A stretch of DNA of 44,448 nt from an uncultured SAR86 cluster bacterium. Its GTDB lineage: Bacteria; Pseudomonadota; Gammaproteobacteria; Magnimaribacterales; Magnimaribacteraceae. The translations under genes and the position numbers were made by a program. The stretch lies in NCBI GenBank assembly GCA_902594545.1, contig CACJMO010000008.1:1-44448 (forward strand), given 5' to 3'. Of the stretch, positions 31,523-32,899 are shown in pieces. Each line of letters starts with the position of its first letter. The first letter of the stretch is position 1. The notes under the pieces are model-generated. The model was not told where the DNA came from and searched no databases. It saw only the letters and a list, made by a program, of their open reading frames with translations.

Positions 31523-32311
31523 TTAAGAACTAGCTACAGCTCCTCCATCACATGTAATGGTTTCACCAACAGTATAAGCTCCTGCTCTGGAACATAGAAA
31601 AATAGCTAAACCAGCTATATCTTCAGGAGTTCCAACCCTTCCTCTTGGATTAGAGTCTCCAACTGCTGCCCAATCGATGTCTAGATCACCGCCTCCACCT
31701 ACTCCTGTACTCAACATCCAGGTTGGAAAAGGTCCTGGAGCAATCGCATTTACAATAATATTTTCTTTCACAAGAGAAGCTGCCAAAACTCTTGTTAAAT
31801 GATGAAGTGCTGCTTTTGAAGGTCCATATGAAAACGCATCAAAAAGACCTGTTTTAATACCGTCTATGCTACCAATATTAATTACCCTAGACGGATCTTC
31901 AGCTGTTCCAGAGCTTCTTAGTAAAGGTAGAAGTTTTTGGGTAAGAAAAAAGACACCTTTAACATTTGTGTCCATCACTTTATCCCAGCCTTTCTCTGAA
32001 TACTCATCTATCGGTTCTCCCCATGATGCTCCAGCATTGTTCACCAAAATATCTAAAGACGTATCTGATAATTGACCAACCAAACTCTCAATACCTTCCA
32101 AATTAGACAGGTCAGCAGGTAAGGAAATACACTCTCCTCCATACTCCTCTTGCAATCTTTTGGCAGTAGCGTCGCAAGTTTCTGCTTTTCTAGAGCTTAT
32201 ATAAACTTTTGCTCCATTAGCTAAAAAACCAGCAGCAATCATCTCGCCGATACCTCTAGACCCACCTGTAACCAGTGCAGTCTTTCCTTCAATTGAAAAT
32301 AGATTTTTCAT
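31523..32311 (-). CDS. Short-chain dehydrogenase/reductase (RhlG-like)
   Basis: A 262-residue classical SDR. TGGSRGIG at residues 15-22 binds NADP(H), NNAGASWG follows, and the catalytic Ser-Tyr-Lys is in GSIDGIK and FSYGPSKAA. The long insert FPTWMLSTGVGGGGDLDIDW before the C-terminal part resembles RhlG-type ketoreductases. The substrate is not known. It is the first gene of the minus-strand run ending in grxD, and its Shine-Dalgarno region overlaps the -35 of the divergent hsp20 promoter. Confidence 0.88.
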   Translation of the reverse strand: MKNLFSIEGKTALVTGGSRGIGEMIAAGFLANGAKVYISSRKAETCDATAKRLQEEYGGECISLPADLSNLEGIESLVGQLSDTSLDILVNNAGASWGEPIDEYSEKGWDKVMDTNVKGVFFLTQKLLPLLRSSGTAEDPSRVINIGSIDGIKTGLFDAFSYGPSKAALHHLTRVLAASLVKENIIVNAIAPGPFPTWMLSTGVGGGGDLDIDWAAVGDSNPRGRVGTPEDIAGLAIFLCSRAGAYTVGETITCDGGAVASS

Positions 32312-32318
32312 ATTACTC

Positions 32319-32347
32319 CTTGATAATTAATTAATTGATCCCCATAT
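32319..32347 (+). promoter_or_regulatory. Sigma32-type heat-shock promoter of hsp20
   Basis: CTTGAT (32319-32324) and CCCCATAT (32340-32347) are 15 bases apart. This agrees well with the heat-shock consensus (CTTGAA and CCCCATNT, spacer 13-17). Transcription should begin near 32353, about 63 bases before the hsp20 ATG. Confidence 0.75.
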
Positions 32348-32352
32348 AAGTA

Positions 32353-32415
32353 GTGTAAGTGCCTTAGGGGCTTACGTAAATTGTTTAATAACTTGCTTAA
32401 TATAAGGAGAAGAAA
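32353..32415 (+). promoter_or_regulatory. ROSE-like RNA thermometer in the hsp20 leader
   Basis: Two hairpins fill the leader. The first is GTAAG/CTTAC with an inner G-C part (32355-32375). The second (32392-32409) pairs CTTGCTTA with TAAGGAG around an ATA loop and covers the whole Shine-Dalgarno. TTGCT at 32393-32397 faces AGGA at 32405-32408 with the G at 32395 unpaired. This is the UYGCU/AGGA arrangement that defines ROSE thermometers in front of small heat-shock genes. Confidence 0.7.
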
Positions 32416-32865
32416 ATGATTAATAATACATTTGACTTATTGTGGAGAGACATTTCTCCATTCACCATAGGGTTCGACAGAACCTTTGATACTTTAGCTT
32501 TACTAGCTAACTCAAAACAACAAACCTCTAATTATCCGCCCTATAACATTAGGAAGCTTAGTGAGGATAAATACACTATAGAGCTTGCTGTAGCTGGATT
32601 TGAAGAAGAAGAAATTGACATAGAGGCAGCAGGTGAAAACCTCACAATCAAAGGCTCTAAAGATAAAGAGGCTTCTGAGGGTCTTGTTCATCAAGGACTT
32701 GCAGCTAGAGACTTTAATAAAACATTTGTTCTATCGGATGATATGGTTATTAAAGGTGCAGCTTTAAGTAATGGAATGCTTTATATAGGAATAGAAAGAA
32801 TCATTCCTGAAGACAAAAAACCTAGAAAGATTGACTTCACATCGAAGAGCAAATTGCTAGGCTAA
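32416..32865 (+). CDS. ibpA: Small heat-shock protein Hsp20 (IbpA-like)
   Basis: A 149-residue alpha-crystallin-domain chaperone that holds unfolding proteins. The core includes YPPYNIRKLSEDKYTIELAV near residues 40-60 and GLAARDFNKTFVLSDDM. The IbpA-like ending has MLYIGIERIIPEDKKPRKI. Its regulation is visible in the DNA: a sigma32-type promoter, a ROSE-like thermometer over the AAGGAG Shine-Dalgarno, and a strong terminator 6 bases after the stop. So both transcription and translation should be heat-induced. Confidence 0.94.
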   Translation: MINNTFDLLWRDISPFTIGFDRTFDTLALLANSKQQTSNYPPYNIRKLSEDKYTIELAVAGFEEEEIDIEAAGENLTIKGSKDKEASEGLVHQGLAARDFNKTFVLSDDMVIKGAALSNGMLYIGIERIIPEDKKPRKIDFTSKSKLLG

Positions 32866-32870
32866 AATAG

Positions 32871-32899
32871 AAAAGGAGAGCTTAGCTCTCCTTTTTTTT
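32871..32899 (+). terminator. Intrinsic terminator after hsp20
   Basis: A seven-pair GC-rich stem GGAGAGC/GCTCTCC with a TTA loop (32875-32891) is flanked by four A-T pairs and followed by eight T. It is the only strong intrinsic terminator I found in the window. It also contains the stop codon of the small minus-strand gene and may act weakly in that direction. Confidence 0.9.

Follow-up and report, generated by a model that had tools for sequence, protein, structure and literature searches.

Based on the comparison of one hsp20 leader with its counterparts in related genomes, we propose, with a probability of about 0.83, that the 5′ leader of this gene in SAR86, an abundant lineage of the surface ocean, is a short ROSE-type RNA thermometer. 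The window (the whole stretch of 44,448 nucleotides that was analysed, from an uncultured SAR86 cluster bacterium) holds the gene, a sigma-32-type promoter and a leader of two hairpins, as listed in Table 1. A heat-shock promoter plus a ROSE-like thermometer on hsp20 had been proposed by a sequence-only reading of the window, and this proposal gains support from the conservation of the leader, the covariation in hairpin I, the ROSE_3 matches in relatives and the decay of the element at loci without hsp20. The letters that this reading described were all found in place (CTTGAT-15-CCCCATAT at 32319–32347, CTTGCTTAATATAAGGAG at 32392–32409 and ATG at 32416), and its two-hairpin leader would measure about 60–63 bases, given a transcription start near 32353, as the −10 element suggests.

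Table 1. Features of the hsp20 locus in the window
Feature	Position	Strand	Basis
hsp20, IbpA-like small heat-shock protein, 149 aa; start ATG 32416	32416..32865	+	Pfam HSP20 and NCBIfam IbpA
Divergent SDR-like gene, sharing the intergenic region with hsp20	31523..32311	-	named by eye from sequence
−35 element CTTGATA of the sigma-32-type promoter	32319..32325	+	pattern match, conservation
−10 element CCCCATATA	32340..32348	+	pattern match, conservation
Hairpin I: GTGTAAGT-G-CC, loop, GGGCTTACGT; G32361 unpaired or mismatched	32353..32377	+	folding, covariation
Possible lower arm, partner 32414-32421, over the start codon	32379..32386	+	prediction only
Hairpin II, anti-Shine-Dalgarno strand CTTGCTT, G32395 unpaired	32392..32398	+	sequence, invariance among leaders
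Shine-Dalgarno AAGGAG, second strand of hairpin II	32404..32409	+	sequence, alignment

The encoded protein matched Pfam HSP20 with 64.4 bits, above the cut-off, and NCBIfam IbpA with 122.5 bits, below the equivalog cut-off of 212, and it is the sole HSP20 match in its own genome, which is 71% complete. Its closest relative, from SAR86 AG-447-A08, shares 97% protein identity, and the 22 titled relatives are labelled SAR86 cluster (16), Gammaproteobacteria (3) and Woeseiaceae (3). The records labelled Woeseiaceae (L098, L099, L100) carry the same leader with an Hsp20 75–77% identical, and could be mislabelled relatives or a case of transfer. Directly after hsp20, a terminator-like inverted repeat with a run of T behind it was seen by eye (32871–32899).

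The leader recurs across the SAR86 order. A covariance model (R1), built from 15 leaders and applied to 203 genomes of the order with 23 candidates scored per genome, gave 63 matches in 62 genomes, the 15 training sequences included, and none in the remaining 141. Sixty of the matches lie at hsp20, 49 recognised via an Hsp20 reading frame, 10 via position, and one (G013) where the contig end falls within hsp20, a linkage that is somewhat inflated because the model spans 12 bases from the start codon onward. Two others (G022, G026) lie at the same locus without hsp20, and one (G042 C1, 25.4 bits) is off-target. Within family f1 (35 genomes), the element was found in all 21 genomes with a clear hsp20, a count that takes in G013 and leaves out G022, a weak match with an internal stop. 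R1 found no match in many hsp20-bearing genomes of families f2 and f4, and the ROSE models at E up to 1 gave none in the 11 f2/f4 loci scanned; loci of these families (L032, L033, L036–L042, L044) mostly show AGTCGCT facing AGGAGGAC(T) in a ROSE-like layout. An extra hairpin is apparent in the hsp20 leaders of genera g12 and g13 (L022, L023, L024, L027, L034, L035), and when L024 and L027 were folded a third hairpin appeared that is absent in the window.

Within the window's own family covariation is scant, with one of 16 pairs changed on both sides, and because this variation is too little a wider set of 30 leaders, 27 of them distinct, was used. Excluded from it were two remnants (L071, L073), genera g12 and g13 for their extra hairpin, families f2 and f4 for their different hairpin II, the leaders L005, L009, L010 and L020, and the second copies of loci already included; an antisense match at L100 (19.9 bits) was spurious and was removed from the alignment. 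Standard pairs occupy 97.4% of the pair cells. Both partners have changed in eight of the 16 pairs, in 39 cells altogether; shuffling gave 10.9 on average (none of 500 shuffles reached 39), and slid versions of the structure gave at most seven. These figures lean upward because the alignment (A7) was adjusted to the structure and the shuffles keep relatedness. Hairpin I contributes seven of its ten pairs, with 96.6% of its cells paired. In hairpin II, one of the six pairs covaries: the loop-side pair 32398/32404 is U-A in 21 leaders, A-U in four (genus g17) and broken in two, and the other five pairs, and likewise the UUGCU strand including the unpaired G, are invariant in all 27 distinct leaders. 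Covariation in 32392–32409, on which the sequence-only reading would have its pairing judged, is therefore present but thin, being limited to one pair and one genus.

A sigma-32-like promoter could be assessed upstream of 43 of the 44 leaders; the spacer of the best-scoring pair measures 13 bases in 42 of these and 14 in the window. CTTG is kept in 38 of the 43, a number to be read in the knowledge that the promoter score itself rewards CTTG, and 11 of the 43, mostly from families f2 and f4, score 12 or less, which is the background level. Read on the opposite strand, the −35 element CTTGATA overlaps with the Shine-Dalgarno sequence that serves the divergent SDR gene; the full CTTGAAA occurs in ten leaders, and since no SDR start was seen close by in any of these ten, the conservation of the −35 element is probably not due only to the Shine-Dalgarno of the divergent gene. 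A score of 17 was reached by one of 1,108 window pieces of 160 bases, and this piece, judged by its score, should be the hsp20 promoter. In the own genome, the promoter pattern has eight matches against two for the reversed pattern, groES has CTTGAAA-13-CCCAAAATA, and a Clp ATPase match (below the ClpB cut-off) shows no promoter above background. Of 21 genomes searched for the sigma factor gene rpoH, 20, including the own genome, had a match above its cut-off.

Every one of the 27 distinct leaders can form the ROSE pairing, and its energy hardly varies among them, lying between −2.7 and −3.7 kcal/mol at 15 °C, between −1.4 and −2.2 at 25 °C and between −0.3 and +0.3 at 37 °C. For the window itself the values are −1.4 kcal/mol at 25 °C and +0.2 at 37 °C, and a register shifted by three bases, in which CTT and CTT pair with GAGAAG (32407–32412), reaches −3.3 and −1.2, respectively, and also covers the GAG of the Shine-Dalgarno; it requires G32412, and its full form is impossible in the other 26 leaders. 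When three registers were compared at 25 °C, the ROSE pairing was the strongest in 18 of the 27 leaders, and a shifted one was stronger in nine, including the window. Some leaders have a last hairpin predicted to be stronger, such as that of G044 at −5.0 kcal/mol at 37 °C. Thus, the pairing of TTGCT with AGGA, which had been read as hiding the Shine-Dalgarno, can form but is weak, and in the window the shifted register is stronger on paper. Folding across temperature, also suggested by the sequence-only reading, gives no sharp switch from the single sequence: predicted opening of the Shine-Dalgarno is shallow in the whole leader (0.14 at 15 °C to 0.27 at 37 °C) and without a temperature trend in the isolated hairpin fragment (0.33–0.40), and when 32350–32440 was folded, 32407 and 32408 were unpaired with probabilities of 0.92 and 0.87 at 15 °C, the best fold leaving both open. 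The start codon is predicted to be paired (32379–32386 with 32414–32421) in the window's genus and in g4, and more open in most other lineages. ROSE elements contain non-standard contacts that nearest-neighbour rules do not treat; therefore, such folding neither proves nor excludes a switch.

The Rfam family ROSE_3 (RF02523), which we take to be built on the short ROSE elements of Pseudomonas ibpA, aligned to 32353–32421 over all 69 positions with 17.6 bits (E 0.12 in 161 bases searched), the best of four matches listed, and other ROSE families, sought in the window leader at E up to 10, were not among the matches listed. The Rfam search that the sequence-only reading had called for thus left the window below the gathering cut-off of 43, and not filed as a formal member, while a relative, G024, passed it with 44.1 bits. 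In the search of 61 genomes (the own genome and 60 relatives), 17 had a ROSE_3 match: the best six, at 44.1, 33.9, 31.5, 25.8, 24.2 and 24.2 bits, are each located immediately upstream of hsp20, and 11 lie elsewhere at 15.2–18.5 bits, with no match in the own genome in this search. Six of 14 control genomes had a match at E up to 1, none above the cut-off. Over 38 loci at E up to 1, the eight ROSE_3 matches listed were all at hsp20 leaders, and the other 30 loci, including the window's own (L001) and 11 of families f2 and f4, had none. Over 274 genomes of the class one match was found at E up to 0.001, and absence in this search means little because just 17 candidates were scored per genome. 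In another gammaproteobacterium, a ROSE_3 match of 37.8 bits (L136:1501-1566) overlaps a short open reading frame, part of which is IbpA-like and which may be a truncated ibpA.

The window shows the general pairing and placement of the ROSE class, as TTGCT (32393–32397) faces AGGA (32405–32408) with G32395 unpaired in the last hairpin before the start codon, in the 5′ leader of a small heat-shock gene. This resembles the classical ROSE elements of Rhizobium species, Caulobacter, Salmonella and E. coli, in which a U(U/C)GCU strand pairs with the Shine-Dalgarno in the last hairpin of a heat-shock leader; those have three to four hairpins according to PMC3669281, whereas the window has two. The two-hairpin design is not new, as the same paper, of 2013, describes it on Pseudomonas ibpA with probing, mutants and reporters, including locked mutants without the unpaired G, and reports that the element melts upon warming. 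The view that ROSE elements have been found chiefly in rhizobia and enterobacteria, and that two hairpins would make a new minimal form, was therefore wrong. Like this short ROSE, the window has a sigma-32 promoter, here recognised by consensus and conservation only, and a pair of hairpins of which the first is conserved and shows compensatory changes. However, hairpin II of the 27 SAR86 leaders is much weaker, its ROSE pairing at −0.3 to +0.3 kcal/mol at 37 °C against −4.1 to −7.6 kcal/mol for the Pseudomonas sensing hairpins (PMC3669281), the two having been computed differently. The Pseudomonas Shine-Dalgarno core has G-C on both sides and the start codon is unpaired, whereas in the window the lower pair C32392-G32409 is present, the upper pairs are U-A, and the start codon of the window's genus is possibly paired, by prediction. 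Because the upper G-C clamp is missing, we file the leader under the ROSE type in general and not under the Pseudomonas form. The UUGCU motif is also common to ROSE-like elements upstream of ABC transporter genes (PMC11342760), although the genes differ. In the open-licence literature, we found no publication on RNA thermometers in SAR86 or on SAR86 small heat shock proteins.

Loci that have lost hsp20 bear on the function of the element. A search for the SDR neighbour (E up to 1e-60) covered the 14 f1 genomes outside the 21, plus the own genome, and found it in seven of the 14. At each of these seven SDR-keeping loci without hsp20, at least one of TTGCT and AGGAG is no longer intact. Judged by eye, remnants of hairpin I and the linker persist in five (G001, G005, G014, G022, G026), G023 retains only a −10-like stretch, and G030 nothing recognisable; G001, G005 and G014 look alike and probably reflect one loss event. 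As the Shine-Dalgarno and its partner are decayed in seven of seven, both decay after the loss of hsp20. More generally, hsp20 is absent in several SAR86 genomes, and promoter and leader remnants stand beside the SDR gene (L071, L073, L142, L147, L148).

Taken singly, the motifs of the window are not beyond chance. CTTGCT...AGGAG is expected 0.22 times per window (at least one in 16 of 100 shuffles) and the promoter pattern 0.12 times (at least one in 10 of 100), and the fold of 32340–32425 is not better than that of shuffles (z −0.44; 57 of 200 equal or better), so that, given this z-score and the competing registers, single-sequence folding was dropped as proof. The ROSE-like start pattern has three more matches elsewhere in the own genome, two of which were rejected as lying inside an open reading frame (L135) or antisense to one (L133). 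Expectations of 0.1–0.2 per window and such a z-score are in keeping with an AT-rich sequence that carries a Shine-Dalgarno complement and promoter-like words without meaning, but this explanation is contradicted by the conservation, the covariation, the hsp20 linkage and the ROSE_3 matches in relatives, and is scarcely credible. The comparison with relatives is decisive, and judged by it the promoter and leader motifs are far more than chance.

The leader could also be a structured 5′ end without switching in the living range, hairpin I serving mRNA stability and hairpin II a low, fixed translation. Most covariation does sit in hairpin I, and the predicted opening of the Shine-Dalgarno is shallow or flat; yet the invariant strand with its unpaired G is the ROSE motif itself, hsp20 belongs to the heat-shock genes, and in Pseudomonas an element built the same way melts when warmed (PMC3669281), so we hold this account to be unlikely. 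It is very unlikely that the leader is mainly the binding site of a trans-acting factor, e.g. IbpA itself, to which the Shine-Dalgarno pairing would be secondary. Enterobacterial IbpA represses itself at the mRNA, the conserved unpaired G in each hairpin is a potential contact, and hairpin II is weak unaided; however, nothing in this analysis points to any partner, and pairing with the Shine-Dalgarno is maintained in one genus in which 32398/32404 has switched from U-A to A-U.

For the ROSE-type thermometer that we favour, the following course is proposed. Under heat stress, sigma-32 (RpoH) would transcribe hsp20 from the promoter at 32319–32348. At normal sea temperature, CTTGCTT would pair with AAGGAG, leaving G32395 unpaired and the Shine-Dalgarno hidden, and warming would open the weak hairpin II so that the ribosome could bind, while hairpin I would remain folded and may aid the formation of hairpin II or shield the 5′ end. 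A wider picture, tentative and rather doubtful as it stands, is that of an order-wide SAR86 ROSE family on hsp20, in which the weak last hairpin would switch within sea-surface warming (below about 30 °C) and not at 37–42 °C, some genera would have extra hairpins, and repeated loss of hsp20 would leave decaying thermometers.

The short ROSE thermometers experimentally known in Pseudomonas would thereby be extended to streamlined bacteria of the ocean, which points to sea temperature being read directly by RNA. The natural weak variants, together with the decaying copies, may offer material on how the set point of a thermometer is tuned and lost.
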